Positions 1 through 21,460 of a stretch of 24,663 bases of DNA are shown piece by piece; position 1 is the first letter of the stretch; the number at the start of each line of letters is the position of its first letter. The translations under genes were made by a program, and so were the position numbers. The notes under the pieces are model-generated. The model was not told the origin of the DNA. It made no database searches and was given only the letters and a program-made list of their open reading frames with translations. Origin of the DNA: an uncultured Faecalibacterium sp. (lineage in GTDB: Bacteria; Bacillota; Clostridia; Oscillospirales; Ruminococcaceae); NCBI GenBank assembly GCA_934525325.1, contig CAKSZE010000025.1, positions 1 to 24,663 on the forward strand, written 5' to 3'.

Positions 1-1362
<1,362 letters not shown>

Positions 1363-1366
1363 TGCC

Positions 1367-1417: not shown

Positions 1418-1433
1418 AAGCGTAGGAGGAGTT

Positions 1434-1688
1434 ATGGGACAAAAGGAAAAGCTGATCGAACGATTGAAGGCAAAGCCAAAAACATTCACCTTTGATGATG
1501 CCGAGAGCCTGCTGCGCTATTTCGACTATACGCGCTCCAACAAAGGCAAGACCAGCGGCTCCCGCATCCTGTTCGTATCCGAAAAACATCCGCCTATCAT
1601 GATGCACAAGCCGCATCCCCGCAAGGAGCTTTTGGAGTATCAGATCAAACAGCTGATTCAAATTCTGGAACAGGAGGGACTTCTGTGA
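1434..1688 (+). CDS. hicA: HicA-family toxin (mRNA interferase)
   Basis: An 84-residue protein of the HicA family, whose members are small double-stranded-RNA-binding-fold ribonucleases inhibited by HicB. The recognisable core is the SGSRILF strand followed by IMMHKPHPRKEL. The usual catalytic His after the Gly-Ser of classical HicA is Arg here, a feature I associate with a HicA subfamily ending in the HKPHP signature. The ATG at 1434 is chosen because AGGAGGA (1424-1430) lies four bases upstream; an in-frame ATG at 1362 would run through the secA terminator and has no ribosome site. It overlaps hicB by four bases (GTGA), so toxin and antitoxin are translationally coupled. Confidence 0.88.
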   Translation: MGQKEKLIERLKAKPKTFTFDDAESLLRYFDYTRSNKGKTSGSRILFVSEKHPPIMMHKPHPRKELLEYQIKQLIQILEQEGLL

Positions 1689-2023
1689 ACAATACGATGG
1701 AGTATAAAGGCTATGTAGGCAGCGTAGAATTCTCAGAGGAGGATGGCCTTTTTTACGGCAAGGTAATGGGCATCCGTGCGCTGCTTTCCTACGAGGGTGC
1801 CACTGCTGCGGAGCTTGTCAGCGATTTTCACGGCGCAGTGGATGACTATCTGGCACTCTGCGAGCAGACCCACCAGACCCCCGAAAAAGCCTATAAGGGC
1901 AGCTTCAATGTCCGCATCCCGCCGGAGCTGCACAAGCAGGCTGTGGTTTACGCCGCAGCACATAATATGAGCTTGAATAATCTTGTGGAACGGTCTATTC
2001 GTCAGACGGTTCATGCAGGATAA
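1685..2023 (+). CDS. hicB: HicB-family antitoxin
   Basis: A 112-residue partner of HicA. The N-terminal part (YKGYVGSVEFSEEDGLFYGK, then GATAAELVSDFHGAVDDY) is the partially degraded RNase-H-like HicB fold that binds the toxin. The C-terminal part (FNVRIPPELHKQAV followed by SLNNLVERSIRQTV) is a ribbon-helix-helix DNA-binding domain used for autoregulation. Translation starts at GTG 1685, six bases after AGGAGGG (1672-1678), and the GTG overlaps the hicA TGA. The gene is intact, so the pair looks functional. The next gene starts 25 bases downstream and may share the transcript. Confidence 0.9.
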   Translation: MNNTMEYKGYVGSVEFSEEDGLFYGKVMGIRALLSYEGATAAELVSDFHGAVDDYLALCEQTHQTPEKAYKGSFNVRIPPELHKQAVVYAAAHNMSLNNLVERSIRQTVHAG

Positions 2024-7376: not shown

Positions 7377-8426
7377 TCAGCCCTTCAACGGCATGATGCT
7401 CTCCGGCGCGGCACACAGGTACTGCGGCGCGGCGGGCGCTGCCGAGGAAAGGCTTTTTTTGCTTACCTTCCACCACAGCTGCGCCGTGCCCTCCGGCGGG
7501 GTGCAGATGAGATTCCAGTCAAAGGGATTCTCGCTGGTGGAAACGGCCTTTACCGGGATGGCGTTGGGCGCGTCCGCAGCGCAGGGCGCAAAGTCGTGAG
7601 CACGGATGCCCACAGCGGTGCAGCCCGCCGGGACGGGCAGCGCCAGCCGCAGGGTGGTGTTCCAGCCGTCCAGCCGGACGGTGTGGCTGTCCAGCGGGGT
7701 GCAGGGCAGAATGTTCTTGCAGCCGGTCAGCCGCGCGGCGGCAATGCTCTGCGGGTCGGCAAAAACGGCCTTAGTGCTGCCGGTACGCAGCACCTGTCCT
7801 TCGTTCAGCGCGATCATTTCCCGGCACAGGCGGTAGGCCTCGTCCCGGTTATGGGTCACCAGCAGGGCGGTGCCCGCAAAGTTTGCCAGCAGGCTGCCTA
7901 CCTCGCCCTCTACCTCCTCCCGCAGGTAGCTGTCCAGCGCACTGAAGGGCTCGTCCAGCATCAGGATGCGGGGCTTGCCCACCAGAATGCGTGCCAGCGC
8001 GGCGCGCTGCTGCTGCCCGCCGGAAAGCTGGGCGGGATAGCGCTTGGCAAGCGCTTCCAGCCGCATGGCGCGCAGCATTTCGGCGCAGGCGGCGCGGCGC
8101 GCGGCGGGGTCTTTTTCCGCTTTCAGACCGCAGAGGACATTCTGCTCCACGGTCATGTTGGGGAACAGGGCATAGTTCTGGAACAGCAGCCCCACGCCCC
8201 GCTGCTGCGGCGGCAGGTCGATGTGCTGGTCGCTATCAAACAGCACCCGCCCGTCCAGCACGATGCGTCCGCGGTCCGGCTTTACGATACCCGCGATGCA
8301 CCGCAGGGTCATGCTTTTGCCGCAGCCGGAGGCGCCCAGCAGGGCGGTGGAGGTGTTCCCGGCGGTAAAAGCGGCACGGAGGGTGAAGCCGTCCAGCTTC
8401 TTTTCAATGTTGACTTCGAGGCTCAT
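7377..8426 (-). CDS. modC: Molybdate/tungstate ABC transporter ATP-binding protein
   Basis: A 349-residue cytoplasmic ATPase that powers oxyanion import with ModB. It has Walker A GASGCGKS (residues 31-38), Q-loop FQN (Q83), signature LSGGQQQR (134-141), Walker B ILMLDEP (154-160) and switch His192. The remaining 150 residues form a divergent C-terminal regulatory region of the TOBE/MOP kind, with GIRAHDF typical of such domains. The start at 8426 is chosen because ATG overlaps the modB stop by four bases; the frame stays open upstream but inside modB. Whether molybdate or tungstate is carried cannot be told; the neighbouring oxidoreductase family may use either. Confidence 0.92.
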   Translation of the reverse strand: MSLEVNIEKKLDGFTLRAAFTAGNTSTALLGASGCGKSMTLRCIAGIVKPDRGRIVLDGRVLFDSDQHIDLPPQQRGVGLLFQNYALFPNMTVEQNVLCGLKAEKDPAARRAACAEMLRAMRLEALAKRYPAQLSGGQQQRAALARILVGKPRILMLDEPFSALDSYLREEVEGEVGSLLANFAGTALLVTHNRDEAYRLCREMIALNEGQVLRTGSTKAVFADPQSIAAARLTGCKNILPCTPLDSHTVRLDGWNTTLRLALPVPAGCTAVGIRAHDFAPCAADAPNAIPVKAVSTSENPFDWNLICTPPEGTAQLWWKVSKKSLSSAAPAAPQYLCAAPESIMPLKG

Positions 8427-9094
8427 TTGCGGCCACCCGCTTTCTGTTTTTTCTCCAGCAGGTTCACCGCCAGCAGCACCACCGCCGAGATGGCGATATC
8501 CACCAGCACCCACCGCATGGCGCCCAGCTCATCGTTGGTGCGCCACAGCTGATAGACCGTGGTGGCGATGGTGGCGGTCTTGCCGGGGGTGTAGCCCGCG
8601 ATCATGCTGGTAGCGCCGTATTCGCCCAGTGCCCGGGCAAAGGCCAGCACTGTGCCCGCCAGAATGCCCTGACGGCAGGCGGGCATTCGCACCCGCCAGA
8701 AGATCCATGTATTGGACTGTCCCAGCGTCTGTGCAGACCATGCCAGCGTTTCGTCAAAGCTTTCAAACGCGCCGCGCGCAGTGCGGTACATCAGCGGAAA
8801 AGCCACCACGATGGAAGCAAAGATGGCGCTGTACCAGTTCATGACCAGCTTTACCCCGAACTGCTGCAGGAAGAAGATGCCCAGCGGCCGCTTTGCGCCG
8901 AAGAGCAGCAGCAGAAAGTAGCCCACCACCGTGGGCGGCAGCACCATGGGCAGGGTGAGCAGTACATCCAGCACACCCTTGACCACCCGGGGCAGCCGGG
9001 CGATATAGTAGGCCGCAAAAATGCCAAGAAAGAACACCGCCGCGCAGCTGATCAAAGCAATGCGCAGGCTGTTCCACAACGGATACCAGTCCAT
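8423..9094 (-). CDS. modB: Molybdate/tungstate ABC transporter permease
   Basis: A 223-residue inner-membrane permease with about five hydrophobic segments (first near residues 10-32, last near 195-213). The ModB/CysW signatures are present: LLTLPMVLPPTVVGYFLLLLFG near the N-terminal half, RTARGAFESFDETLAWSAQTLG leading into the ATPase-coupling EAA-type loop, and LAFARALGEYGATSMIAG. Length is normal. It follows modA by 10 bases and overlaps modC by four, so the three transporter genes form one translationally linked unit. Confidence 0.93.
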   Translation of the reverse strand: MDWYPLWNSLRIALISCAAVFFLGIFAAYYIARLPRVVKGVLDVLLTLPMVLPPTVVGYFLLLLFGAKRPLGIFFLQQFGVKLVMNWYSAIFASIVVAFPLMYRTARGAFESFDETLAWSAQTLGQSNTWIFWRVRMPACRQGILAGTVLAFARALGEYGATSMIAGYTPGKTATIATTVYQLWRTNDELGAMRWVLVDIAISAVVLLAVNLLEKKQKAGGRK

Positions 9095-9104
9095 CTCTGC
9101 TCCT

Positions 9105-9989
9105 TTATACAGCGCTGAAGCCCACGCCTTCGAATACGGTCATGGCCTTGTCGGTCTGCAAGTAAGCCAAAAACTCCTTGGCAGTCTCGGCGTTGGGGGC
9201 GACCTTCAGCACAGCGGCGGGGTAGATGACCTGACCGCACATCTCCTTGGTGGCCTCGTCCACGGGGGTCAGACCGGCACTGTAAGCATCGGTGCAGTAA
9301 ACGACACCGGCGTCCACGCTGCCCTCGGTGACCTGCGTGGTCACCTCCTTGACGTTGGAGCCGTAGGTGATCACGCCCGCAGCAGCCAGTGCAGCTTCGC
9401 CCAGCTGGTAATAGGCAAGGATCTTCTGGGTGTACTGACCCACGGGTACATCGCTGTTACCCATGCAGAACAGGATATCCTGTGCCTTCAGATGCTCGGC
9501 CAGTGCATCAAAGCTGCCAATGCCCTTGTCGCTGCCCTCCGGCACACAGAGCACCACCTTGTTCTCCAGCAGGTTCACGCGGCTGTCGGCATCCACAAAG
9601 TCCAGCCCGTCCTTGTTCACATCGGCAGAAGCGGTGATGTCCAGCTGGTTCATCTGTTTCTGACCGGCAGAGATGAACAAATCGCAATCCGCGCCCTCCT
9701 GGATCTGGGTCTTGAGGGTGCCGGAGGAGTCGAAGTTAAAGCGGAAGGTCACTTCCGGGTGCTCTGCCGTGTAGCTTTCGCCGATAGCGTTCAGCGTCTC
9801 GGTGAGGGATGCGGCGGCAAACACGATCAGCTCCACGCTCTGGGCTGCTTCCGAGGAAGCGGCGGCAGAGGAAGCCACGGACGATGCTGCGCTGGAAACA
9901 GCACCGCCGCAGGCGGTGAGGGCAGCGGCGGCACCGGCCATACCGGCAGCGGCCAGAAAACTCCGGCGGGAAATGCGATGGCTGTTCAT
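9105..9989 (-). CDS. modA: Molybdate/tungstate-binding lipoprotein
   Basis: A 294-residue periplasmic-type binding protein anchored outside the membrane. The N-terminus ISRRSFLAAAGMAG carries a twin-arginine motif (Arg8-Arg9), followed by a hydrophobic stretch and lipobox LTAC (Cys27), so it looks like a Tat-exported lipoprotein; a Ser/Ala-rich spacer (residues 30-48) follows. The mature part starts LIVFAAASLTETLNAIG, the ModA hallmark with oxyanion-contacting Ser residues. DSSGTLKTQIQEGADCDLFIS and later YGSNVKEVTTQVTEGSVDAGVVY are also characteristic. The ATG is preceded by AAGGAG. It begins the modABC unit, with a candidate promoter in the 73-base gap upstream. Confidence 0.94.
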   Translation of the reverse strand: MNSHRISRRSFLAAAGMAGAAAALTACGGAVSSAASSVASSAAASSEAAQSVELIVFAAASLTETLNAIGESYTAEHPEVTFRFNFDSSGTLKTQIQEGADCDLFISAGQKQMNQLDITASADVNKDGLDFVDADSRVNLLENKVVLCVPEGSDKGIGSFDALAEHLKAQDILFCMGNSDVPVGQYTQKILAYYQLGEAALAAAGVITYGSNVKEVTTQVTEGSVDAGVVYCTDAYSAGLTPVDEATKEMCGQVIYPAAVLKVAPNAETAKEFLAYLQTDKAMTVFEGVGFSAV

Positions 9990-10062: not shown

Positions 10063-10995
10063 TTACTTGCGGGCGCACTCGCCGTCCAGACCCGCGGCGA
10101 TGCGTACTCCGTGCTCCAAGCTGGGCAGGATGTACTCCAAATTCTCCTGCACTGCCTTGGGGCTGCCCGGCAGATTGACGATCAGGGTCTTGCCGCGCAG
10201 CACGCTGACGCCGCGGCTCAGCATCCCGCGCGGGGTGATGCTCAAGCTGTGATAGCGCATGGCTTCGGCAATACCGGGGGCGTTGCGATCGGCTACGGCG
10301 CAGGTAGCTTCCGGGGTGATGTCCCGGGGGGAGAAGCCGGTGCCGCCGGTGGTGAGCACAAGGTTCACCTGACGGCCGTCTGCCATGCGGATGAGCTGCG
10401 CTTTCAGCGCCTTGGCTTCGTCCGGCAGGATCATGGTCTCCTCCACCACATAGCCTGCGGCGGTGAGCATTTGGGCGATCAGCGGGCCGCTTTTATCCTC
10501 CCGCTCGCCGCGGCTACCCTTATCCGAAAGGGTGATGACGGCAGCGCGCAGGGGCGGGTTTTCCAGTGCGGGCAGCAGGGTCACCTCGTCCCCCACATGG
10601 ATCTCGCCGCCGGTGAGCACCCGGGCGAACACGCCCTCGTGGGGCATGATGCACTCGCCGGTCTGCTGCTTGATGACGCAATCATTGTGGCACTCTTTGC
10701 CGATCTGAGTCATTTCCAGCACAACATCGCCAATGGCGAACCGGCTGGTCACCGGCAGGTTGCGGAAATCGAAGCCCTCGATGACCAGATTTTCGCCAAA
10801 GGCACCGTAGTCCACCCAGAGCTTTTTACGGAAGGCTTCGATCTTTTCGGCGCTGAGCATACTGACCTGACGATGCCAGTTGCCGCCGTGGGCGTCCTCC
10901 ACGATGCCCCATTCCGGGGTCAGGACGGCGCTGGGCACCTCAGTTTTTACGGTGCCCCGCTTGGGGCTGGTGCAGATTGCCAGAAGCTTACCCAT
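10063..10995 (-). CDS. MOSC domain - MogA/MoaB molybdopterin adenylyltransferase fusion
   Basis: A 310-residue two-domain protein. Residues 1-145 are a MOSC (molybdenum cofactor sulfurase C-terminal-like) domain, with EDAHGGNWHRQVSML and IGKECHNDC (Cys102 is the candidate conserved ligand). Residues 150-310 are a MogA/MoaB domain that adenylylates molybdopterin before metal insertion, with VITLSDKGSRGEREDKSGP, TTGGTGFSPRDITPEA (about 215-230) and VNLPGSPKAVQENL. The fusion links MPT activation with handling of the sulfurated or metal-loaded cofactor. The start is six bases after the moaA stop; its ribosome site GGAGGA is formed by the last two moaA codons. Confidence 0.93.
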   Translation of the reverse strand: MGKLLAICTSPKRGTVKTEVPSAVLTPEWGIVEDAHGGNWHRQVSMLSAEKIEAFRKKLWVDYGAFGENLVIEGFDFRNLPVTSRFAIGDVVLEMTQIGKECHNDCVIKQQTGECIMPHEGVFARVLTGGEIHVGDEVTLLPALENPPLRAAVITLSDKGSRGEREDKSGPLIAQMLTAAGYVVEETMILPDEAKALKAQLIRMADGRQVNLVLTTGGTGFSPRDITPEATCAVADRNAPGIAEAMRYHSLSITPRGMLSRGVSVLRGKTLIVNLPGSPKAVQENLEYILPSLEHGVRIAAGLDGECARK

Positions 10996-11001
10996 AGTTA
11001 T

Positions 11002-11979
11002 TTATCCTCCAATGCGATACATCCCGCGGGTAGCGGGCATGGAACTGTCGTTAAAATGGTGTTCCCGGGGCTTTGCCCAGATAGTCTCCCGGATAGCGGC
11101 CAGCAGCTGCGCATCGTCTGCGCCGCTGCGCAGCAGTGCGCGCAGGTCGCACCCGGTCTCGCTGGCAAGGCAGGGGCGCAAAAAGCCCTGACTGGTCAGC
11201 CGCACCCGGTTGCAGGAGGCACAGAACTTGCCGTGCACCGCTGCAATAAAGCCGATGCTGCCCTGCCAGCCCGGCACGGCGTAGTACACCGCCGGACCAT
11301 CGCCCAAGGCGTGCTCCTGCGCCGGGGAAAGGGGCGCAAGTTCCGGCCAGCGCCGGGCAAACCGCGCCCGCAACTCCGGGCCGGAGATGCAGGGCATGGC
11401 AGCACCGTAGCCGATGGGCATCATCTCGATGAACCGCACCTGCAGGGCGTTGTCCTTTGCCAACGCGGCAAGCGTTTCCAGTTCACCCTCGTTGACGCCC
11501 GCCTGCGGCACGCAGTTCAGCTTGACCGGCAGGCCGCTTTGCAGCGCTGCCTGCAAGCCCGCCTGCACGGCGGCAAAATCGTCCCGGGCAGTGATCTGCC
11601 GGAATACCTCCGGGCGCAGAGTGTCCAGACTGATGTTCACGCTGTCCAGCCCGGCGTCCAGCAAAGCGGGCAGCTGCTCTGCCAGCAGCACCGCGTTGGT
11701 GGTCAGAGTGACCCGGCGGATGCCCGGGGTCGCTTTGAGCCCGGCCACCAGCTGCGCCACATTCTTGCGCACCAGCGGCTCGCCGCCGGTCACCCGCACG
11801 GTGTCGATGCCGCACTGGGCAAACAGCGCAGCCAGACGCAGAAATTCTTCGTAGGTCAGCACGGCTTCCCGCTCCAGCTTTTCCACGCCGTCCGGCATAC
11901 AGTAGCGGCAGCGCAGGTTGCACAGGTCGGTCACCGACAGGCGCAGATAATGGATCTCGCGCTGGTAACGATCAAACAT
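11002..11979 (-). CDS. moaA: GTP 3',8-cyclase MoaA (radical SAM)
   Basis: A 325-residue radical SAM enzyme for the first step of molybdopterin synthesis, converting GTP to 3',8-cyclo-GTP in the cytosol. The N-terminal SAM cluster motif CNLRCRYC supplies Cys20, Cys24 and Cys27, and [11 protein letters not shown] is the SAM-binding GGE motif. The C-terminal GTP-side cluster uses Cys253, Cys256 and Cys270 ([18 protein letters not shown]). The protein ends in the functionally required Gly-Gly tail (IGG). It overlaps moaC by eight bases, and its ribosome site lies in the last moaC codons. Confidence 0.97.
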
Positions 11980-12469
11980 AGCCGCCCTCCGCCCGGATAT
12001 AGTGGCCGCTCTTGCCGCCGGTCTTTTCCACCAGATGGATCTCGCCCAGCTCCATGCCCTTATCCACGGCCTTGCACATATCGTAGATGGTCAGCAGCGC
12101 GGTGGAAACGCCGGTCAGCGCTTCCATCTCCACGCCGGTCACACCACTGGTCTTGACGGTGCACAGGGCTTCCACGGCCTGCCGCTCGGGCAGCAGACGG
12201 AACTCGATGCCTACCTTTGTCAGCGGCAGCGGATGGCACAGGGGGATCAGCTCACTGGTGCGCTTGGTAGCCATAATGCCCGCAATGCGCGCCACGCCCA
12301 GCACGTCACCCTTTTTCACGGTGCCGCTCTGCACGGCGGCAAAGGCTTCGGCGTTCATGGTAATGATGCCGTGGGCAGTGGCTTCCCGGGTGGTGACGGG
12401 CTTTGCGCTCACATCCACCATCACGGCGTTCCCGGCGGCATCAAAATGTGTCAGATTATTTTCACTCAT
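11972..12469 (-). CDS. moaC: Cyclic pyranopterin monophosphate synthase MoaC
   Basis: A 165-residue enzyme that rearranges the MoaA product into cyclic pyranopterin monophosphate. Conserved segments are [15 protein letters not shown] at the start, [14 protein letters not shown] with the catalytic-pocket His, [20 protein letters not shown] and the terminal KTGGKSGHY with the active-site Lys. Length is standard. It follows moeA2 by 29 bases with AGGTGA as ribosome site and overlaps moaA. Confidence 0.96.
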
Positions 12470-12498: not shown

Positions 12499-13518
12499 TC
12501 AGCAATGCCCAAAGCCGCAGTTCGGCCAGTGGCACACTTCGCAGTTCAGGCACAGGCCGCCTTCGCCCAAGCGGGCGATATCCTCGGCGGTGATGGGGTC
12601 ATCGGCCAGTAGACGGGGCAGCAGCAGGTCAAAAATGGTGCGCTTGGCGTACATCACGCAGCCGGGCAGACCGCACACCGGCACACTGTCCAGATAGCTC
12701 ACAAGGAACATGGCTCCCGGCAGCACCGGGGCACCGTAAGTGATGATGTCCGCCCCGGTGTTTTTGATCGCCAGCGGGGTGCGGTCGTCGGGGTCTACGC
12801 TCATGCCGCCGGTGGTAAAGATCAGTTCGCACCCGGCGGCTTTGGCCTCCAGAATGGCGGCGGTGATCCCGGCGGGGTCGTCATCGCAGACCTTATGGAA
12901 AACCATCTCGCAGCCGTAGACGGCCAGCTTGCTTTGCAGGATGGGGGTGAATTTATCCTCAATGCGGCCCTTGAACACCTCGCTGCCGGTGGTGATGATG
13001 CCCACCTTTTTGGCCTGCATGGGCAGCACGTTCAGGATAGGCTCTGCTCCGGCAGCGGCCTGCATGGCGTCCATCTTCTCCTGCTCGATGACCAGCGGGA
13101 TGATGCGGGTACCGGCCAGCTTCTGGCCCTTTTTCACCGGCAGGTCGCCGTGGATGGTGGCGATCATCATCTGCGGGGTGCTGTTTACAGCCATCAGCGC
13201 CTTGCGGTTGATCTTCAACAGGCCGTCGCAGTCCGCGATCAACTCAATCTTGCCCTCTTTCGGCGCAGTACCGTGGATATTTTTGCCCGCAGCGGCCTTG
13301 TACAGCAGGGCGGCTGCTTCGTCCTCGTGGAGGATGCCGGGGTGCTTTTCCCAGACGTAGAGGTTCTCCTTGCCGATGGAAAGCAGCACGGGGATGTCCT
13401 CGGGCTGGATAACGTGCCCCTTGCGGAAGCGGGCATCCTTGTACTCGCCCGGGATGATCTGGGTGATATCATGGCAGAGCACCTGCCCTGCGGCGTCAAC
13501 AGTACGGATCAGTTTCAT
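12499..13518 (-). CDS. MoeA/MoCF-type molybdopterin-binding protein with cysteine-rich tail
   Basis: A 339-residue protein carrying a MoCF-biosynthesis (MogA/MoeA-like) domain: VGIITTGSEVFKGRIEDKFTP (about residues 172-192), IFTTGGMSVDPDDRTP (233-248) and PVCGLPGCVMYAKRTIFD. It lacks the full four-domain architecture of the true MoeA encoded just upstream. The C-terminus CLNCEVCHWPNCGFGHC holds five Cys (323, 326, 329, 334, 339) and two His, a likely Fe-S or Zn site. Such proteins accompany Mo hydroxylase or oxidoreductase loci in Clostridia; the reaction is unknown. Possible roles are metal choice, cofactor storage or delivery. It follows mobB by 13 bases. Confidence 0.82.
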   Translation of the reverse strand: MKLIRTVDAAGQVLCHDITQIIPGEYKDARFRKGHVIQPEDIPVLLSIGKENLYVWEKHPGILHEDEAAALLYKAAAGKNIHGTAPKEGKIELIADCDGLLKINRKALMAVNSTPQMMIATIHGDLPVKKGQKLAGTRIIPLVIEQEKMDAMQAAAGAEPILNVLPMQAKKVGIITTGSEVFKGRIEDKFTPILQSKLAVYGCEMVFHKVCDDDPAGITAAILEAKAAGCELIFTTGGMSVDPDDRTPLAIKNTGADIITYGAPVLPGAMFLVSYLDSVPVCGLPGCVMYAKRTIFDLLLPRLLADDPITAEDIARLGEGGLCLNCEVCHWPNCGFGHC

Positions 13519-13531: not shown

Positions 13532-14050
13532 TTACAGCGCGGGCATCTGGGCTTCGATCCAGTCTGCCAGTGCCGGAATATCGTTCAGGTCAAAATCTGC
13601 GCCGGGGATATCTCCCACCACCGCCAGCGGCTGGAAGGAAGCGGGCGCATTCGAGATGGCGCTGCGCACCACCTCGATCTTCGGCCAGCCGCTGGATTTG
13701 AACCCTTCCAGCAGCACAAGGTCGTAGCCGTGACGCTCGAACAGGGCAAGCAGATCCTGTTCGGTCAGGCGGAATTCCTCGGTCAGCAGGTAGCGCGTGC
13801 CGGAGTAGACCGCCACACCCTCGGCACCTGCTTCCCGCAGGCGGTAGCTGTCGGTGCCGGGCACGTCCGGGGTAAAATCGTGGCCGTCGTGCTTGATGAC
13901 GCCCACCTTCAGCCCACGGCTGCGCAGTACGGGCAGCAGCTTTTCCAGCAGGGTGGTCTTACCGCTGTTGTGCACCCCGCTGACCGCCAGCACCGCCGGG
14001 CGCTTGAGCGCCTGCGTTTCGGCAAGCGCCTGTTTTTGTTCACTGTACAA
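13532..14050 (-). CDS. mobB: Molybdopterin-guanine dinucleotide biosynthesis accessory protein MobB
   Basis: A 172-residue P-loop GTPase. Walker A GVHNSGKTT spans residues 25-33, GVIKHDGHDFTPDVPGTDS is the family-specific KHDxH segment, and VLLEGFKSSGWPKIEV is the switch/Walker B region. MobB binds MobA and assists attachment of GMP to the cofactor, but no mobA is in this window. The start overlaps the moeA end by 11 bases. Confidence 0.92.
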   Translation of the reverse strand: MYSEQKQALAETQALKRPAVLAVSGVHNSGKTTLLEKLLPVLRSRGLKVGVIKHDGHDFTPDVPGTDSYRLREAGAEGVAVYSGTRYLLTEEFRLTEQDLLALFERHGYDLVLLEGFKSSGWPKIEVVRSAISNAPASFQPLAVVGDIPGADFDLNDIPALADWIEAQMPAL

Positions 14051-15278
14051 AGCAAAGCACCTCCACTTCCATACCGGGTTCCACCGGCCCGCTTCCGGCG
14101 GGGATCTCCACCAGACAGTTGCAGCCCATCATGGCGGACAGCGCACCGGAGGAGTGCGCCTCGGTGCTGCCCGCGCCGGGCAGGGTCACCTTGCCGCCGC
14201 AGGCGGTGGCCCGCAGGTAGCGGTTGCCCTTGCTGGCTTTGGAAAAACCGTTTGTCAGGGTGCAGACAATGCGGGCAGGGATGCAGCTCTCCTCCCGCCG
14301 TCCGGCGGCGCGCAGCAGCGCAGGGATGGCGTACTGCTCCAGCGTAGCGGCGGCGGCAAAGGGGTTGCCGGACAGGCAGAACACCAGTTTGCCGCCCAGC
14401 GTTGCCGCCAGCATGGGGCTGCCGGGCTTTTGGGCTACGCCCTCCACCAGCAGCTGTGCGCCCAGCTGTTCCAGCACAAGGGGCAGATAGTCCTTCTGCC
14501 CCACGGAAACGCCGCCGCTGGTGATGACAGCATCGCAGCAAGTCAGCAGTTCCTGCATTTTGCCGGTGATGACCTCCGGGTCATCGGAGCACTGCTGCCG
14601 CTCCACGGCAAAGCCCAGCTGACGCAGCCGGGCGGCGTTCTGGATGCCGTTGGCATCGTAAATTTTACCGGGTGCCCACGGTGCGCCGGGTTCCAGCAGC
14701 TCGCTGCCGGTGGAAAGGATGCCCACGGTCAGCGGACGGCAGACGGCTACTTCGGCGTAGCCCTGCCCGGCCAGCACACCCAGATGGGCGGGGGTGAGCA
14801 CCGTCCCGGCGGGCGCAATGACCGCACCGGCAGCCACGTCCTCGCCCCGGAACACTACGTTTTGCAGCGGTTTTACGGCGGCATAAAGCTGCACGGCGTC
14901 CTCGCCGCTGTCGGTCAGCTCCTGCATCAGGATGCAGTCCGCGCCCTCCGGCAGGGGGGCACCGGTCATGATGCGGGCGGCACACCCTGCGGGCAGCGCC
15001 GCAGCCGGGGCATCGCCCGCGTAAAGCTTCATCACCACCGGCAGGGTGACCGGGATCTCCCGGCTTGCACCGGCGGTATCCGCGCTGTGCAGGGCGTAGC
15101 CGTCCAGCGGGCTGCGGTCAAAGGGGGGCTGGTCCATCCGGGCGCAGAGGTCGGCGGCGGCAATGCGGCCGCAGGCGGCTTCCAGCGGGATGCTCTCCGG
15201 GGACGGAGAAGGCAGAAGCGCTGCCGCGCCCAGCACGCTGCGCAGCGCCTTGACGGGGGAGCAGAAAGGCTGGTTCAT
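14040..15278 (-). CDS. moeA: Molybdopterin molybdenumtransferase MoeA
   Basis: A 412-residue enzyme that inserts molybdate (or tungstate) into adenylylated molybdopterin. Recognisable segments are PPFDRSPLDGYALHSADT, ARIMTGAPLPEGADCILM, VGILSTGSELLEPG, ITSGGVSVGQKDYLP and the catalytic-loop region LSGNPFAAAATLE. Domain order and length fit MoeA. The ATG at 15278 is chosen because GGAGGA lies seven bases upstream; an in-frame ATG at 15293 precedes that ribosome site and has none of its own. It is the first gene of the cofactor-synthesis operon and is preceded by a long structured leader with a terminator. Confidence 0.94.
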   Translation of the reverse strand: MNQPFCSPVKALRSVLGAAALLPSPSPESIPLEAACGRIAAADLCARMDQPPFDRSPLDGYALHSADTAGASREIPVTLPVVMKLYAGDAPAAALPAGCAARIMTGAPLPEGADCILMQELTDSGEDAVQLYAAVKPLQNVVFRGEDVAAGAVIAPAGTVLTPAHLGVLAGQGYAEVAVCRPLTVGILSTGSELLEPGAPWAPGKIYDANGIQNAARLRQLGFAVERQQCSDDPEVITGKMQELLTCCDAVITSGGVSVGQKDYLPLVLEQLGAQLLVEGVAQKPGSPMLAATLGGKLVFCLSGNPFAAAATLEQYAIPALLRAAGRREESCIPARIVCTLTNGFSKASKGNRYLRATACGGKVTLPGAGSTEAHSSGALSAMMGCNCLVEIPAGSGPVEPGMEVEVLCFVQ

Positions 15279-15370
15279 TATAACTTCCTCCATAGACCCG
15301 CCGCTCTCCCCTTCTGCTATGGCTCAGATGGGGCACCGGCGGGGGTATTCTTTTTTCAAAAAGGCAGGTG

Positions 15371-15416
15371 AAAAAGAAGCGGAGACGTCTTGACCGGAAA
15401 ATCAAAACGCCTCCGC
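15371..15416 (-). terminator. Intrinsic terminator in the leader upstream of moeA
   Basis: Read on the minus strand, a 15-bp stem with two G-U pairs (15402-15416 with 15379-15393) closes an eight-base loop and is followed by TTCTTTTT. It lies about 300 bases after the ydhW-like stop and 93 bases before the moeA ATG. It could be the end of the upstream operon or, more interestingly, an attenuator governing moeA and everything below it. Confidence 0.75.
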
Positions 15417-15640
15417 AGAATATCCCCACAAAACCGGCAGCGGCAGTTTGCAGTCTGCTACGCCGGTGGCAGCCTTTGGCTATGCGCCGCCCTTGCAGCG
15501 GCAGCACACAGCCAAAAAGTACCTGTGAAGATGGGAGGAGTTCTTTTTTTCAAATTGCAGCGTTTCTTCTGCGGGAAGGCGGTGGGGTTTCCCCCGCCAC
15601 CCTTGAATGCCCGCCCTTGCGGGTGCAGCATTGCGGCGCG
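15417..15640 (-). ncRNA. Structured leader RNA upstream of moeA (candidate molybdenum/tungsten cofactor riboswitch)
   Basis: This non-coding stretch folds readily on the minus strand into successive hairpins. One at 15576-15603 has an eight-base-pair outer stem, a C-A mismatch, four G-C pairs and a GAAA tetraloop. Others lie at 15610-15623, 15475-15516 (about 16 pairs with two bulges) and 15433-15467. An imperfect 20-base direct repeat (15487-15506, 15611-15630; 17 of 20 identical) suggests a duplicated module. An intrinsic terminator follows directly. Position upstream of moeA, a GNRA loop and the terminator fit a Moco/Tuco riboswitch, but I did not confirm the family consensus by eye. Confidence 0.45.
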
Positions 15641-15718
15641 GTGTCCTGCTCTTTGTGGGAGTTTAGACACCTTTGCTCAAAGAAGCTCTTATACCCTGAT
15701 TCAATTGTAGTTTATGGT

Positions 15719-16636
15719 TTAATCGCAGAACTCGTCCACATCGCTGATAGCCTTGGCGTAGCGGCGGGTGAGGTGCTTGGTGGAAAAGAGGAACCGCTCG
15801 TTCTGGTTGTTGGTCAGTTCCTCGATATCGGCATAGGCGGGGTTCTCCTGCATGGCCTTCCAAGTCTCTTCGATGACCTCCGGCGCAAGGCCGTAGGGAG
15901 AGCGCTGGAAGTACTTGAGCGGAGTGGCGCTGGGGTAGATGCGGGCGTTGAACCGCACCATCTCGGCGAACATCACACACAGATCCTTGTCCTCGATAAG
16001 CTGCGCGATCATGGCGTAGTTATCGCTCATGTTGGCGTTGGAATAGTAGTAGGTGTCCTTTGCACCCGCGCGGGTGACGATATCGGTGCACTGGGGGTCT
16101 GCGGGCAGCTGCGCCAGCAGCTCGTCGGCGTTTTCCACCTCCTCCAGCAGCAAAGCGTGGGGGGTAAGCATCGCAGCCGCAGAGCGGGCACGGATGTAAC
16201 CAGCCAACTCCTGTGCCGGGGTCAGCTCTGGCAGCTCCGGGGCGGTCTTGGTGGGCTGATCCGCAAAGGGATCGTTTTCCGCTTCCGGCTCACTTGCCAG
16301 AAAATCCAGCAGCTCCGGCTTTGCAGCATCGGGCTGCGCAGCTTCGGCGATTTCGGGTGCGGCCTCGGCGGCCTGCTTTGCGGCAAGCTCGGCGGTCTCC
16401 CGCTCCACTGCGGCGATCACGTCCTCGCCGGTCTTGGCGGCGCTGCCGTCAAAGGTGCTGCCGGTCTCCTTCAGGCGGCGGGCAGTCTCGCTTGCAGCGT
16501 CGATGTCGAACACCTCTGCCTTGGGCTTTTTCTTGGCGGCCAGTTCTGCCTTTTGCAGTTCCAGAACGGCCTGCTCCGGGTCTACGCTGCCATCCACCGT
16601 GGTGGTGTAGCCGGGTTTACGTCTGCCAAACAACAT
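15719..16636 (-). CDS. YdhW-like protein associated with AOR-family oxidoreductase
   Basis: A 305-residue cytosolic protein without signal peptide. The N-terminal half (to about residue 135) is Ala/Glu/Lys/Pro-rich and probably disordered. The C-terminal half is compact and aromatic-rich, with DTYYYSNANMSDNYAMI, MVRFNARIYPSATPLKYF and FLFSTKHLTRRYAKAI. This part resembles my recollection of YdhW of the Escherichia coli ydhYVWXUT operon, and the gene order YdhY-YdhV-YdhW is the same. Function is unknown; a chaperone or assembly role for the AOR-family subunit is plausible. An AGAGGA site precedes the ATG, 26 bases after the upstream stop. It is the last gene before the structured leader. Confidence 0.7.
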   Translation of the reverse strand: MLFGRRKPGYTTTVDGSVDPEQAVLELQKAELAAKKKPKAEVFDIDAASETARRLKETGSTFDGSAAKTGEDVIAAVERETAELAAKQAAEAAPEIAEAAQPDAAKPELLDFLASEPEAENDPFADQPTKTAPELPELTPAQELAGYIRARSAAAMLTPHALLLEEVENADELLAQLPADPQCTDIVTRAGAKDTYYYSNANMSDNYAMIAQLIEDKDLCVMFAEMVRFNARIYPSATPLKYFQRSPYGLAPEVIEETWKAMQENPAYADIEELTNNQNERFLFSTKHLTRRYAKAISDVDEFCD

Positions 16637-16662
16637 GACGGTTTTTCCTCTTTCTGTGGAAT

Positions 16663-18819
16663 TTATTCAGTTGCTGCGATGTTCTGAGCGTAGATGCCGC
16701 GCTTTTCCAGATCATCGGCCATGTCAGCCAGATCATACTTCTCCAGCGTCTCGCGGGTGGGCACACCGGTGGTGCGGTCCCAGCCAAAGACATCGTAGAA
16801 CAGATCCTTTGCTTTCTCCATATCGGCGCGGTCCAGCTTGGTGGTGCCTTCCTCAAATGCCTTGAAGTCGGGGTCCTTATCAAACACCCAATCGCAGATG
16901 GCATCGTGCTCCTGACGCAGGTTTGCGCTGCCGCAGTTCTGCTGGAAGCTGATGGCGGTCATCACGCGCAGCATCTGGGTGATGCGGGCGCCATCCTCCT
17001 GCAGACCGGCCTGGGTGTAGGTCTCGCCGGTGACAGCAGTCATAAAGTCTGCCTGCAGATCCAGGTCGCCGTGGTAGTTGCGCTCCTTGGAGGGAGACTG
17101 GGTCATGGGCCACATCCAGTTGCACAGGGTGGCGGAGTCGTGGAAGTTCTTATCGTTGACGCAGTAGGCAGCCAGCTTTGCCTTGTTCTCGTTGATGGGA
17201 GTGTAGGCCTTGGCCTTATCGTAGCAGCCCTCGCCGAAGAAGTCCTCCATGACCTTCTTGGTCACCTCATAGGGAGCACCGGAACCGGTCTCGCAGACGA
17301 TCTCGTGGATCATGCAGTCACGGTTGTAAACGAGGTTGTACAGCATACCCACCTGCCATGCCTCAGCAGGGCCGTGGTGGTTGGGGAAGCCGTTGTAGAT
17401 CAGGTTGGAGTTGGTAGCGCCGTCGGTGCGGTCCAGCCAGCTCTTGGGCAGGCCGAACTTTTCCATCATGGCCAGCGTGCCCTTGGCGATGACGGACAGA
17501 TCGCCCTCGCCGTAAGCCATGCGGCGGATCAGCTCGACCTCCCAGCGGGGATCGCCGGCCTTCTCCCACTCCCAGGGCAGAGAGTCGTACTCGGCCTCGC
17601 TGATGTACTTGGTGGCTTCCTCGCGCGGCATCCGCAGGATCCACTGCAGGTCGCGGTTCAGGTTGCCGTAGTTGTCCCACAGACCCATGTCGTCCACAGC
17701 ATGAGACCATGCCAGATTGATGACCATGGTGCCGTCGCCTTCGTACTTGAAGTCGTGCACGCCGTCCGGGTAGACGCGGGTGCCGTACAGCACGGGCATA
17801 CAGGTGTTGGAGTTGTGGGTGGGCAGATCGTAATCGGCCAGCGGATCCACATCATACTCGGTGTAGCAGCGGATGGGGCAGGAAGAGCAGCCGCCGTTCT
17901 TCACGGTGTACTCGGCAGCGGGAGCGCCGAAATCGAAGTAGCCCTTGAAGCAGCGCAGAGCCACCTTGTTGATATCGTTGTAGGGCTGCTCGCCGGTATC
18001 CACGGGGCCGCCGGGAGCCTTCTTCCACATACGGCCGGGAGCGCCGGACCAGCGGTTCTTGCCGGAAGTGGCGCTGTACTCGGCCCAGCTCTGGGGCTGT
18101 GCGGGCACATTGTGGTTGTTGTTGCCGCCAATCAGGTTGCCCATCATGTAGTTGGAGAGCTCCAGCACCTTCTTGGGATCAGCCACCTTGACGCTGCCGG
18201 TACCGCGGATAGCAAGGCCCTTCAGCTTCTTGTTGCCCAGCGCAGCGCCCAGACCGGCGCCGCCGGAGTTGCCGAAGCTGGTGTTCAGGGTGGAGTAGTC
18301 CACCAGATTCTCACCGGCAGGGCCGATGGAAGCAGTCTCGAACTCGCGGCCGTTCTGCTCCACCATCCACTTGTTGGCAGCAAAGGTGCCCTTGCCCCAG
18401 ATCTCGCTTGCATCCTCCAGAGAGACCTTGTCGTCCTCGATGCGCAGGTAGACGGGCTTTTCGGAGATTCCGCTGAACACGATGCCGTCGTAGCCGGCAT
18501 ACTTCAGCATGGAGCCGATGTGGCCGCCCATGTGAGCATCAACGATGGAATTGCCCTTGGACCATGTGGAGCGGAAGGTCACGTTCATGCGGCCGGAGCA
18601 GGGCACGCCGGCACCGGTCAGGGGACCGACACCGAAGATGACCAGAGCCTTCTCGTCATAGGGGTCCAGCTCCATGGGAGCTTCCTCGTACATGATGCGG
18701 TAGGCCATGCCCATACCGCCGATATATTTATGGTATTTTGCGTCGTCCTGCGTGGTGATCTCGCCGGTGGTCAGGTCAACGCGCAGGATCTTGCCTGCCC
18801 AGCCATAGGTTTCAGCCAT
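16663..18819 (-). CDS. Aldehyde:ferredoxin oxidoreductase-family enzyme, YdhV-like
   Basis: A 718-residue oxidoreductase of the AOR family, whose members hold tungsten or molybdenum on two pterins next to a [4Fe-4S] cluster. The N-terminus GWAGKILRVDLTTGEI is the family opening; CSGRMNVTFRS, SIVDAHMGGHIG and ASIGPAGENLVDYS line the cofactor domain. Cluster ligands are Cys311, Cys314 and Cys318 (CSSCPIRC) and Cys566 (TLCNW). It lacks an export signal. Neighbours are a YdhY-like ferredoxin (12 bases upstream) and a YdhW-like gene. Escherichia coli YdhV binds a bis-Mo-MPT cofactor, so Mo is as possible here as W. The substrate is unknown; aldehyde or carboxylate redox is only a family guess. Confidence 0.93.
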   Translation of the reverse strand: MAETYGWAGKILRVDLTTGEITTQDDAKYHKYIGGMGMAYRIMYEEAPMELDPYDEKALVIFGVGPLTGAGVPCSGRMNVTFRSTWSKGNSIVDAHMGGHIGSMLKYAGYDGIVFSGISEKPVYLRIEDDKVSLEDASEIWGKGTFAANKWMVEQNGREFETASIGPAGENLVDYSTLNTSFGNSGGAGLGAALGNKKLKGLAIRGTGSVKVADPKKVLELSNYMMGNLIGGNNNHNVPAQPQSWAEYSATSGKNRWSGAPGRMWKKAPGGPVDTGEQPYNDINKVALRCFKGYFDFGAPAAEYTVKNGGCSSCPIRCYTEYDVDPLADYDLPTHNSNTCMPVLYGTRVYPDGVHDFKYEGDGTMVINLAWSHAVDDMGLWDNYGNLNRDLQWILRMPREEATKYISEAEYDSLPWEWEKAGDPRWEVELIRRMAYGEGDLSVIAKGTLAMMEKFGLPKSWLDRTDGATNSNLIYNGFPNHHGPAEAWQVGMLYNLVYNRDCMIHEIVCETGSGAPYEVTKKVMEDFFGEGCYDKAKAYTPINENKAKLAAYCVNDKNFHDSATLCNWMWPMTQSPSKERNYHGDLDLQADFMTAVTGETYTQAGLQEDGARITQMLRVMTAISFQQNCGSANLRQEHDAICDWVFDKDPDFKAFEEGTTKLDRADMEKAKDLFYDVFGWDRTTGVPTRETLEKYDLADMADDLEKRGIYAQNIAATE

Positions 18820-18831
18820 TGTTGTTCCTCC

Positions 18832-19476
18832 TTACAGATCCATGTAAGCAGCCTGTGCTGCACTGGTAACGGCATCCCAGTCCACGATGGACAGAGCGCC
18901 GGACGGGCAGCCTGCCACGCAGGCACCGCAGGCGATGCACTTGGACGACTTGCCGGTCTCGGGGTTGACGGTGGGCATATGCCAAGGGCAGGCGTCGTGG
19001 CAGGCCCCGCAGCCGATGCACTTGTCGGTGTCCACCACGCGGATGCCCTGCGCATTGGTCGTAATGGCCTTCTGGGGGCAGGCGTTGCCGCAGGCGGGGT
19101 CTTCGCACTGGCGGCAGGTGTCCGGGAAGTAGACCCAGCAGTTGTCGCTGCCGGACAGCAGGCCGTTGCCGGCACCGTCCAGATTCAGACGGCGCTGGAT
19201 CTTGACGCGGCTGATGTAAGAGGAGCACACGCCGTCGTTGGTCAGGGTGCAGTTGATCTCGCAGCGCTGGCAGCCGGTGCACAGGTCTGCGTTGACCACC
19301 AGCAGGCCCTGCGGCAGTGCCCAAGTGGCCACTGCGCCGGAATCCACCTGCTGCTGGGAGCAGCCGAACAGGGACAGCATGGAAGCGGACAGGGTGAGCC
19401 CTGCAAGGCTCTTGCCCGAGATCTTCATGAATTGACGGCGGGTCATGTCAGCCGTCAGGAAATCAGTTTTTGCCAT
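18832..19476 (-). CDS. Tat-signal 4x[4Fe-4S] ferredoxin-like protein, YdhY-like
   Basis: A 214-residue electron-transfer subunit. The N-terminus has twin arginines (MTRRQFMKISG, Arg13-Arg14), a hydrophobic segment and a lipobox-like LFGC (Cys39), pointing to Tat export and possible lipid anchoring. Four [4Fe-4S] motifs follow: Cys66/69/72/76, Cys121/124/129/133, Cys153/156/159/163 and Cys180/183/186/190, with the CP ends exchanging partners as usual. Extra Cys at 84 and 113 are unassigned. The sequence pattern fits YdhY of the ydh operon. The ATG at 19476 is preferred, nine bases after GGAGGA; an ATG at 19485 abuts that site. It lies between the FMN-binding protein and the YdhV-like enzyme, the natural electron relay. 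Confidence 0.9.
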   Translation of the reverse strand: MAKTDFLTADMTRRQFMKISGKSLAGLTLSASMLSLFGCSQQQVDSGAVATWALPQGLLVVNADLCTGCQRCEINCTLTNDGVCSSYISRVKIQRRLNLDGAGNGLLSGSDNCWVYFPDTCRQCEDPACGNACPQKAITTNAQGIRVVDTDKCIGCGACHDACPWHMPTVNPETGKSSKCIACGACVAGCPSGALSIVDWDAVTSAAQAAYMDL

Positions 19477-19498
19477 AGGTTCCATTCCTCCGTTGAGG

Positions 19499-20416
19499 TC
19501 ACTCTGCGCAGAGTACCCCGGTCACATAGAAATACGAGTTGTTGACGATGGTCGTCACAGCCGAAGAGGTGATGGTCGCACCGGAAAGGGCGTCCACCTC
19601 GGTCAGGTCTGCGCTGACGGCACCGGACGCATTGCCGGTGGTGGTCAGGCTGGCCTGCTCCAGACGCACCTTGGACTGCTCTTCTGCCGAAAGATCCGCA
19701 AAGGGAATCGCCATCGGCTCGCCGTCCTGTGCGCTCTTGCTGAGCGTGGCTGCGTACAGCTTGCGCCGTGCCACGGCTTCAGCGCTGGAATCCAGCGGCG
19801 GAGCCAGCTCATCGTCCAAGGGCTCCCCCTTCAATGCTGAGAAGGTAAGCCCCGCAGCATACATCTTGCGGGTAGCCTCGGCCTCGGGAGAGGTATCATA
19901 GGTGCGCCACTGTGCGGGGTCAAAATCCCCGGCGGCAGCGGGCTGCTCCTCCGCCGCACCGGCAGCGGCATAGGCGGCACCGGTAACGGGGTCCGTTACG
20001 GTGTAGCTTTTGCCCGCCAGCGTGAAGGGAGCTGCGCCCTGATACTGGGACGTGAACTCCGGGTTGACGCACTGGCCGCCAAGGCTTTCTGTTTCGTCCT
20101 GAGAGAGGATCTCTACTGCGGAAACATTGCCCTCGGCGTCAATGGTCACGGCAGCCTGTACATCGCTCTGGAAGCCCTTCTGAGAGCCCTCCACGCGGTA
20201 GCTGCCATCGTCGAGCTGGTACACTGCGCTGATGCCGTAGGCGGCTGCATCCGTCTCCGACACCGGCAGCAGGGTACCGGCAACCGTGGTGCGCGCGTGC
20301 TGCACAGCGATCAGACCGACCGCCATGGCAACCGTGGCAGCGCCCATGGCTGCATAGCCCGGCAGCCGCTTGCGCCACAGCGGTACGGGCGCAAACGGGT
20401 TGGTTGCCTGCTTCAT
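19499..20416 (-). CDS. Membrane-anchored FMN-binding domain protein (RnfG/NqrC-like flavinylation motif)
   Basis: A 305-residue protein with one N-terminal membrane segment (about residues 20-38) preceded by Arg/Lys, so the bulk should face outside. An FMN-binding fold starts near residue 60 (GSYRVEGSQKGFQSDVQAAVTID, then DETESLGGQ). The fold resumes at DALSGATITSSAV (275-287), which fits the DxxSGAT motif for covalent FMN attachment by ApbE, making Thr281 the likely site. Between the halves lies an Ala/Glu-rich insertion with two similar segments (177-211 and 213-246). It heads the operon with the YdhY- and YdhV-like genes and likely passes electrons to or from them. The ATG at 20416 has AGGTGAT upstream. 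Confidence 0.87.
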   Translation of the reverse strand: MKQATNPFAPVPLWRKRLPGYAAMGAATVAMAVGLIAVQHARTTVAGTLLPVSETDAAAYGISAVYQLDDGSYRVEGSQKGFQSDVQAAVTIDAEGNVSAVEILSQDETESLGGQCVNPEFTSQYQGAAPFTLAGKSYTVTDPVTGAAYAAAGAAEEQPAAAGDFDPAQWRTYDTSPEAEATRKMYAAGLTFSALKGEPLDDELAPPLDSSAEAVARRKLYAATLSKSAQDGEPMAIPFADLSAEEQSKVRLEQASLTTTGNASGAVSADLTEVDALSGATITSSAVTTIVNNSYFYVTGVLCAE

Positions 20417-20512: not shown

Positions 20513-20542
20513 ATATTAACATGGGGGCGCAAAGGATGTCAA
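20513..20542 (-). promoter_or_regulatory. Predicted promoter of the FMN-YdhY-YdhV-YdhW operon
   Basis: On the minus strand a perfect TTGACA (20537-20542), an 18-base spacer and TAATAT (20513-20518) lie in an A/T-rich stretch. The predicted leader of about 90 bases contains two hairpins, CCGCT/AGCGG enclosing GCTG/CAGC (20465-20495 region), and CCGGG-GTTA-CCCGG just upstream of the ribosome site. No T-run follows them, so they are not terminators. Confidence 0.65.
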
Positions 20543-20594: not shown

Positions 20595-21365
20595 TTAAAG
20601 TTTAGGGATTTTGCGCCCGCACACCAGCTGCAGGCCGTATTCCGCCGCAAGCTCTGCGGATTGCACGGTGGGCATACTTTTGCTTACCAGCACCGGCACC
20701 CCGGCGCGGATGGCCTTGCGCACCATATCCAGCGGCACCCGGCCGCTGGTGTACAGCACACATTCTGCCAGCGGCAGCCCCGCCAGCACCGCGCAGCCTA
20801 CCGCTTTATCCAGCGCGTTGTGCCGCCCCAGATCCTCGCAGGCAAAAACGATTTTCCCTTTATGTAGCACAAAGCAGCTGTGCACCGCCCGGGTGGCGCG
20901 GTACAGCGGCAGACCGGCGTGCATGGCGGCGGTCAGGCGCTCCACCCATTCCGGCTGCAAGGCAAGCCCCGGCACAGGGCGCAAAGGCTGCAACTCCACC
21001 GGACTGCCCAGCGCGATATTATCAGTACAACAGCTGGCAACCTCCTGCGCGGCAGCACGGCGGGTGGGCAGCGGGTGGTGCAGATACACCTGCACCTTTG
21101 CGCCCTCGGCGCAGACGGCGATCTGCTCCACCTCGTCCGCAGATGCGATCCACCCTTCGGTGAGCAGCCGTCCCAAGGCCAGCTGCGGCAGCAGCGCCGG
21201 GGTGCATACCACCCGGAAGGCGGGCTGCTCGTTTACATAAATAGCGGCTGCGTGCTCTGCCGGTACGTTGGTTTCGGTGCCGTCTGGCAGGCGCAGACTG
21301 GCAAAGGCCGCCTGTGCGCCAAAGCGGTCGGTGATCTGCAAAGAGGGTGTGCTGCGTTTTTCCAT
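20595..21365 (-). CDS. fdhD: FdhD-like sulfurtransferase/sulfur carrier protein
   Basis: A 256-residue protein. FdhD moves sulfur from a cysteine desulfurase to the pterin-bound metal of formate dehydrogenases. Conserved parts are VVCTPALLPQLALGRLLTEGWI, FACEDLGRHNALDKAVG and LYTSGRVPLDMVRKAIRAGVPVLVS split over the C-terminal half. The usual CxxC loop is not evident: the corresponding segment reads EVASCCTDNIALGS with adjacent Cys. No formate dehydrogenase gene is in the window, so the client may be the YdhV-like enzyme or a distant gene. The ATG at 21365 follows AAGGA by six bases; the frame extends upstream to 21452 through promoter sequence. Confidence 0.87.
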   Translation of the reverse strand: MEKRSTPSLQITDRFGAQAAFASLRLPDGTETNVPAEHAAAIYVNEQPAFRVVCTPALLPQLALGRLLTEGWIASADEVEQIAVCAEGAKVQVYLHHPLPTRRAAAQEVASCCTDNIALGSPVELQPLRPVPGLALQPEWVERLTAAMHAGLPLYRATRAVHSCFVLHKGKIVFACEDLGRHNALDKAVGCAVLAGLPLAECVLYTSGRVPLDMVRKAIRAGVPVLVSKSMPTVQSAELAAEYGLQLVCGRKIPKL

Positions 21366-21416
21366 AAAGTTTCCTTGTATTATAAATGCAATATTGTGTG
21401 TCAGACGGACAGTATC

Positions 21417-21445
21417 AACATACCGGTTCTGTGGCAAAAAGTCAA
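21417..21445 (-). promoter_or_regulatory. Predicted fdhD promoter
   Basis: On the minus strand TTGACT (21440-21445), a 17-base spacer and TATGTT (21417-21422) give a good match. A second, perfect TATAAT occurs closer to the gene (about 21375-21380) but lacks a clear -35 element. Confidence 0.5.
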
Positions 21446-21460
21446 GAGCCATCTTGCCGT

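Follow-up and report, generated by a model that had tools for sequence, protein, structure and literature searches.

A 24,663-nucleotide stretch from an uncultured Faecalibacterium sp. (GenBank assembly GCA_934525325.1, contig CAKSZE010000025.1, positions 1 to 24,663; hereafter the window, meaning this whole stretch) carries a gene for a membrane-anchored flavin mononucleotide (FMN) binding protein, here called fmn, followed by ydhY, ydhV and ydhW, the genes of an AOR-family enzyme system, within a larger molybdenum cofactor cassette. The molybdenum- or tungsten-containing enzyme of this cassette is probably exported, and its redox partner appears to be a flavoprotein in the membrane where Escherichia coli has a cytochrome. 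By gene content we assign the locus to the flavin-linked branch of the YdhV family (Class V WOR, clade 41), the clade number being that of PMC13328260. The main finding is already in print, as the flavin-linked YdhV type is mentioned in one sentence of the 2026 text of PMC13328260; in the literature searched we did not see its architecture, co-occurrence, single-clade distribution, tatC linkage, cassette and riboswitch, or the modelled YdhW fold. Many gut bacteria, and E. coli too, have YdhV-type enzymes, none with an assigned activity or role according to the same text. A compact flavin-tied cassette in a well-known gut genus provides a defined gene set for testing extracellular role, maturation and electron-sink function, and questions of pterin-cofactor biology become directly testable in a system having fdhD with no DMSO-reductase-family protein found, a tandem winged-helix YdhW and no MoaE found.

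The four-gene core and its distribution

A preliminary description, made from the letters of the window alone, had proposed that a membrane-anchored protein with a DxxSGAT motif, a lipoprotein-like 4x[4Fe-4S] subunit with a twin-arginine translocation (Tat) signal, a YdhV-like subunit without its own signal and a YdhW-like protein are encoded together at 15719-20416. All four genes were recovered there, on the minus strand and in the order fmn, ydhY, ydhV, ydhW (Table 1). The FMN protein matches FMN_bind above cut-off in a Pfam profile search (PF04205, E 1.5e-13), and on reading the sequence begins with a basic N-terminus and one hydrophobic stretch and carries the flavinylation motif DALSGAT, in which D275, G279, A280 and T281 are invariant in 11/11 aligned sequences. 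Its predicted features thus agree with the FMN_bind family and with the DxxSGA[ST]-type motif of ApbE substrates. YdhY scores 243.4 bits against PRK09898 (NCBIfam cut-off 213) and, read by eye, presents the leader TRRQFMK, a hydrophobic stretch and the lipobox-like LFGC, together with four cluster motifs of the CxxCxxC type. YdhV matches AFOR_N and AFOR_C (PF02730/PF01314; E 2.5e-61 and 3.6e-32) and reaches 848.1 bits against PRK09849, slightly below the cut-off of 868; the nearest YdhV rows are Faecalibacterium prausnitzii and kin at 98% identity. YdhW scores 117.1 bits against PRK09947, far below the cut-off of 203 (E 1e-33). The N-termini of YdhV and YdhW show no signal on reading the sequence.

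The best 120 of 1241 homologues of the FMN gene are mostly ~305 aa long (longest open reading frame 329 aa), so the start at 20416 given in the preliminary description fits; one of these 120 entries is named 'FMN-binding protein [Faecalibacterium sp.]'. The FMN_bind domain contains a long insert, since the 76-position profile is stretched across 182-196 residues in three loci (L037, L040, L047), and the insert of Faecalibacterium is longer than that of most other aligned rows. Against NCBIfam the protein passes neither the rnfG cut-off (41.8 vs 102 bits) nor that of nqrC (28.3 vs 144 bits). Two predicted proteins, each a single sequence and either a fusion or an assembly error, join FMN_bind to another domain of the system: ferredoxin domains in P0127 (527 aa) and FdhD in P0229 (451 aa). 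A similar P-loop protein with a ICPRGGKGCGIC-like stretch was also noticed by eye near fmn in three loci.

Within the genus, ydhW was detected in 10 of 25 genomes (E <= 2e-33, all under the curated cut-off of the E. coli-based model), and the run from modC to fdhD recurs in the same order in all 10, being inverted in G001 relative to the same flanking genes. The fmn-ydhY-ydhV-ydhW order is more than chance because it is repeated in 10/10 ydhW-bearing genomes. Co-occurrence of the FMN gene with the ydh genes, which the preliminary description had named as a check, is exact at this level: with the FMN-protein profile an orthologue (E <= 2.3e-74) was found in the 10 ydhW-bearing genomes and in 0/15 others, which gave no match or weak ones (E >= 3e-8), many beside RnfD matches. 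The same description had called for apbE and tatAC, and in the relatives' genomes tried (10 with ydhW, 4 without) ApbE was present in 14/14 and TatC in 13/14. Neither of the refuting conditions set in that description thus held in the relatives. RnfD/NqrB-like proteins occur in 25/25 genus genomes.

A wider comparison used 79 YdhV loci, taken from the top 80 among 244 stretches confirmed in named genomes, with genes called by profile matches on open frames (E <= 1e-5) from -5 to +7.5 kb of ydhV and tatC sought within 8 kb. Because Enterobacterales and Faecalibacterium are overrepresented, these counts are not independent. ydhW lies near ydhV in 78/79 loci (the exception is L107) and YdhY immediately beside it in 76/79, the three misses (L046, L049, L079) starting near a contig edge. 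As electron-transfer neighbour 34/79 loci have ydhU (Pseudomonadota) and 14 have fmn (Bacillota); 31 have neither gene and none has both. Together with the E. coli MG1655 annotation, which lists ydhYVWXUT with a 'putative cytochrome YdhU', this bears out the earlier suggestion that a flavoprotein takes the place of YdhU. A YdhV tree of 78 rows, built by a quick method and omitting L046 and L098 (short ydhV frames) and E. coli L028, placed the ydhU rows on one side of a branch (support 100) and gathered all 15 fmn rows, that of the window among them, into one 17-row set (support 96). The other two rows of this set are L034 and L039, the contig of the latter ending 2.6 kb upstream of ydhV. The pattern is read most simply as a single gain of the FMN module and a single loss.

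Proposed export, electron path and direction of reaction

We posit, with a probability of about 0.62 for the mechanism as a whole, a Tat-exported, flavin-linked YdhV reductase complex that is probably fed by Rnf. In the cytosol YdhV would receive a Mo or W cofactor of the bis-molybdopterin type, produced with the help of the neighbouring cassette (ModABC for uptake, MoaA, MoaC, MogA and MoeA), and its maturation would be helped by FdhD and perhaps by YdhW. It would then dock to YdhY, whose Tat leader would take the folded pair across the membrane in hitch-hiker export, YdhY afterwards being retained as a lipoprotein. The N-anchored FMN protein, flavinylated outside by the ApbE of the genome, would connect YdhY to a donor in the membrane, most likely Rnf; through the four [4Fe-4S] clusters of YdhY the electrons would reach the Cys-ligated Mo/W centre of YdhV and reduce an extracytoplasmic substrate.

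Consistent with export, the YdhY leader RRxF[LMVI]K is found in 14/14 fmn loci and in 24/31 loci with neither fmn nor ydhU; the remaining seven comprise two without YdhY beside ydhV and five with other leaders. A tatC gene occurs no more than 8 kb from ydhV in 24/79 loci (5/14 with fmn, 19/31 with neither, 0/34 with ydhU) and is located between fmn and ydhY in L037, L038, L041 and L042, and the TatC of L037, L044 and L095 was confirmed as PF00902. These observations bear on an alternative in which the enzyme stays at the cytosolic face and the FMN protein, perhaps with YdhY, alone crosses the membrane. Such an arrangement would suit the absence of a signal on YdhV and YdhW and the single arginine in the E. 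coli YdhY leader motif; the Tat consensus in every fmn locus and the tatC linkage speak against it, a Tat-exported four-cluster ferredoxin would be partnerless outside, and we regard it as improbable. One of the loci with a confirmed TatC, L044 of Dielma fastidiosa, has ydhYVW, moa and mod genes and tatC and no fmn; horizontal transfer of a molybdenum trait with an AOR in this species is described in the text of PMC6147048.

A link to Rnf is suggested by L047, in which frames above the rnfC, rnfD, rnfE and rnfA NCBIfam cut-offs lie directly upstream of fmn-ydhY-ydhV-ydhW, in a run that also holds an RnfG-like frame (a weak FMN-profile match) and an RnfB-like frame below the cut-offs.

With regard to the active site, the window YdhV is 45% identical to E. 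coli YdhV in alignment, and its Cys340, which aligns with E. coli Cys336, is invariant in 18/18 diverse aligned YdhVs. The text of PMC12096430 describes the E. coli cysteine as a metal ligand shared with no branch other than that of BamB, and the YdhV branch as being without the second-shell residues of aldehyde oxidases. Because of this likeness to Cys-ligated BamB we favour, by analogy, a reductase rather than an oxidase. The neighbouring modABC and moa/moe genes would point to Mo or W, not to which one; E. coli YdhV preferred Mo according to the text of PMC13328260.

The same exported complex might nevertheless run as an oxidase, YdhV oxidising an extracytoplasmic compound and the FMN protein delivering the electrons either inward, to Rnf, or out to soluble flavins, as in flavin-based extracellular electron transfer. 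In the text of PMC13328260 the WORs whose role is known mainly oxidise aldehydes, and other flavin pathways may exist in the genus, in which 23/25 genomes have at least two copies of RnfD-like proteins and three (G001, G020, G024) have weak FMN-profile matches in long frames (632-743 aa). We consider this direction doubtful in view of the BamB-type cysteine ligand kept by the YdhV branch, reportedly without the aldehyde-oxidase second shell (PMC12096430), and of the 46 aldehydes with which the relative C. somerae WOR41L gave no activity (PMC13328260).

Several points weigh against the exported, flavin-linked reductase that we favour. With neither fmn nor ydhU present, ydhV is kept in 31/79 loci, 30 of them with ydhW, so the FMN protein is not everywhere required by the enzyme core. 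L034 has 10 kb of upstream sequence and no fmn, though it falls inside the fmn set of the tree. The YdhY leaders of the ydhU loci are degenerate (24/34 read TRLEFLR or TRQEFLR, 10/34 have another or none), so Tat use by this motif is not general, and TatC was not found in G025, a ydhW-bearing genome that is 87% complete. The Rnf neighbourhood is seen in one locus of 79, and Rnf genes are present in all genus genomes regardless of ydhW. The structure model of the FMN protein is too poor (pLDDT 55.7) for a structure search. The match of the window YdhV to a BamB profile (E 2e-63) ends just short of BamB Cys322, so that equivalence of this residue with Cys340 lies outside the reach of the alignment. 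The C. somerae enzyme, in which W was the main metal taken up, oxidised none of the 46 aldehydes (PMC13328260), and the literature searched yielded no biochemistry on a flavin-linked member.

YdhW, FdhD and the cofactor cassette

The structure model of YdhW contains two tandem winged-helix repeats in its well-modelled part, behind a variable N-terminal part, and thus predicts a winged-helix fold. A TorD-like all-helical chaperone was considered and set aside on this model; no TorD-type chain was among the matches listed, which does not exclude TorD. Sequence matches to solved structures were not credible (best E 0.15). The maturation role has a rival of its own, independent of the other alternatives: at somewhat less than even odds, YdhW may instead regulate the cassette by binding DNA or serve as a third structural subunit. 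Winged-helix repeats are frequent in regulators, while retention near ydhV in 78/79 loci across phyla, as other genes vary, would be unusual for one; winged helices also mediate protein contacts. Homologues of YdhW were taken as the best 120 of 1599. Five Eggerthellaceae loci (L093, L096, L101, L103, L105) have a YdhW-like gene on the opposite strand, in a longer frame of 311-597 aa; nearby is a second ferredoxin, 179-180 aa in length.

The cassette consists of fdhD upstream of fmn-ydhYVW and nine molybdenum or cofactor genes downstream. Near ydhV, fdhD was found in 10/14 fmn loci, 12/31 loci with neither gene and 0/34 ydhU loci. Proteins of the DMSO-reductase family (PF00384) gave no match in 10/10 ydhW-bearing genomes, two of which are 87-89% complete; the sole match, in G007 without ydhW, was best against Fdh-alpha at 283 bits (cut-off 666). 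Because fdhD is present and no formate dehydrogenase of the PF00384 family was found, YdhV is a likely client of FdhD, an idea suggested for the C. somerae enzyme in the text of PMC13328260. The notion of YdhV as the sole molybdoenzyme in its hosts was rejected, as a MoCoBD_2 (xanthine-dehydrogenase-type) protein is present in 13/14 genomes including all 10 with ydhW; the cassette genes may therefore serve that enzyme too, which is a caveat to FdhD having YdhV as client. Taking these elements together, one could imagine a new maturation route for an exported bis-molybdopterin enzyme, in which YdhW would be a Tat-proofreading factor of a new kind for the strikingly conserved YdhY leader, FdhD would sulfurate the Cys-ligated YdhV centre and not a formate dehydrogenase, and the product would be a low-potential, Rnf-fed extracellular reductase; we offer this tentatively and think it unlikely in its entirety. 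In G007 (L122), modABC, moeA, mobB and MoCF genes form a similar run near a 710-aa frame of the DMSO-reductase family with no YdhV, and such cofactor cassettes may swap their enzyme.

Table 1. Features of the window, with P-loop genes from three further loci.
Feature	Sequence	Coordinates	Strand	Description
fdhD	window	20595..21452	-	cassette gene upstream of fmn; sulfurtransferase family, PF02634; TIGR00129 at 129.3 bits (cut-off 140.9)
Promoter-like site	window	20513..20542	-	before fmn; TTGACA-18-TAATAT, TG ahead of second hexamer; consensus match
fmn	window	19499..20416	-	N-terminal anchor and one FMN_bind (RnfG/NqrC-like) domain with long insert; motif DALSGAT
ydhY	window	18832..19485	-	4x[4Fe-4S] ferredoxin subunit; Tat-like leader TRRQFMK; lipobox-like LFGC
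ydhV	window	16663..18819	-	AOR-family catalytic subunit; signal-less; Cys340
ydhW	window	15719..16636	-	signal-less; two modelled tandem winged-helix repeats behind variable N-terminal part
Moco (Mo/W) riboswitch aptamer	window	15539..15684	-	between ydhW and moeA; RF01055, 37.3 bits (gathering 36)
Terminator-like hairpin	window	15379..15416	-	between riboswitch and moeA; 17 pairs, T-rich tail
moeA	window	14040..15293	-	profile match
mobB	window	13532..14050	-	profile match
339-aa MoCF-domain protein	window	12499..13518	-	own N-terminal domain, Cys-rich tail
moaC	window	11972..12469	-	profile match
moaA	window	11002..11979	-	profile match
MOSC and MogA/MoaB-type domain fusion	window	10063..10995	-	profile match
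modA	window	9105..9989	-	TIGR01256, above cut-off
modB	window	8423..9094	-	TIGR02141, above cut-off
modC	window	7377..8513	-	TIGR02142, 195.1 bits, under cut-off 285; named by position
HicA-like and HicB-like neighbours	window	1362..2023	+	HicA-like at 25 bits (cut-off 27)
P-loop protein near fmn	L038	5673..6257	-	by eye
P-loop protein near fmn	L041	2405..2965	-	by eye
P-loop protein near fmn	L047	7735..8310	+	by eye

Between the enzyme and cofactor genes lies a Moco riboswitch aptamer (RF01055), scored in relatives at the gathering threshold only; the window exceeds this threshold, as do 3 of 10 relatives (L018, L020, L022), and the other 7 do not. Promoter-like sites number 4 in the region against 1.6 expected from shuffles and terminator-like sites 4 against 5.8, the hairpin at 15379-15416 being distinguished solely by its stem length and place. 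This arrangement suggests that the cofactor genes may be under attenuation and that the enzyme genes may be started from their own promoter-like site.

No MoaE (molybdopterin synthase) was found in 25 genus genomes with PF02391 (control genomes positive 11/14), nor in 14 genus genomes with a profile of divergent same-phylum MoaE, for which there is no positive control; moaA is present in 14/25. MoaE is reported as absent from all 14 acetogens in the text of PMC5039349. In 76/199 phylum genomes a match was found to the domain that begins the 339-aa MoCF protein; apparently within the same 199, it occurs in 1/13 genomes with clear MoaE (E < 1e-20) and 7/12 with divergent MoaE. Taxonomy may explain this pattern; the protein is a candidate for the missing step. 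ModA has a weak TAT_signal match (20 bits, cut-off 22.7) and may be a second Tat substrate. Elsewhere in the window, the HicA-like and HicB-like genes downstream of a secA cut by the window start are likely a toxin-antitoxin pair.

Comparison with known systems

The closest published description is that of Class V WOR clade 41 in the text of PMC13328260, with which the locus shares an AOR-family L subunit, a Tat-signal S subunit and a putative further membrane-linked subunit, and which names Faecalibacterium among the carriers. The window YdhV agrees by family with the large subunit, as an AOR-family protein of the YdhV branch, and YdhY agrees by motif with a small subunit defined by a Tat signal and/or transmembrane segment; the products of fmn and ydhW, which share a gene run with ydhV in 10/10 genomes, are candidates for the further subunit. 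In the abstract, section 12 and passages of that text covered here we saw no flavin-subunit architecture, Faecalibacterium cassette or YdhW fold, and tat genes for C. somerae only. Two papers on flavinylation (PMC8238504, PMC11334425) do not use the terms 'aldehyde', 'molybdo' or 'tungsten' in their main texts. The steroid 21-dehydroxylation cluster Elen_2451-2454 was rejected as a relative, as Elen_2453 is described as a molybdopterin oxidoreductase and an AOR enzyme there was not borne out.

The ydhYVWXUT locus of E. coli has YdhY, YdhV and YdhW in the same order as the window, and differs in the presence of YdhX, the cytochrome YdhU and YdhT, in the absence of an FMN gene and in a YdhY leader without the second arginine, both arginines being present in the window. 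BamB, of class II benzoyl-CoA reductase, is cytosolic and is not known to have a Tat leader or an FMN_bind partner. Its likeness to the YdhV branch is the Cys metal ligand common to both (PMC12096430), and it differs in belonging to a bifurcating complex, placed in Class IV in the text of PMC13328260. RnfG and NqrC resemble the FMN protein in their N-terminal anchor, FMN_bind domain and DxxSGAT motif; unlike them, the window protein has a long domain insert, and its operon has no RnfD gene. The PceABCT reductive dehalogenase systems differ in their corrinoid enzyme, multi-spanning PceC and trigger-factor type helper chaperone PceT, and resemble the proposed system in placing a Tat-exported metalloenzyme next to a membrane protein that binds FMN, with a helper dedicated to it.

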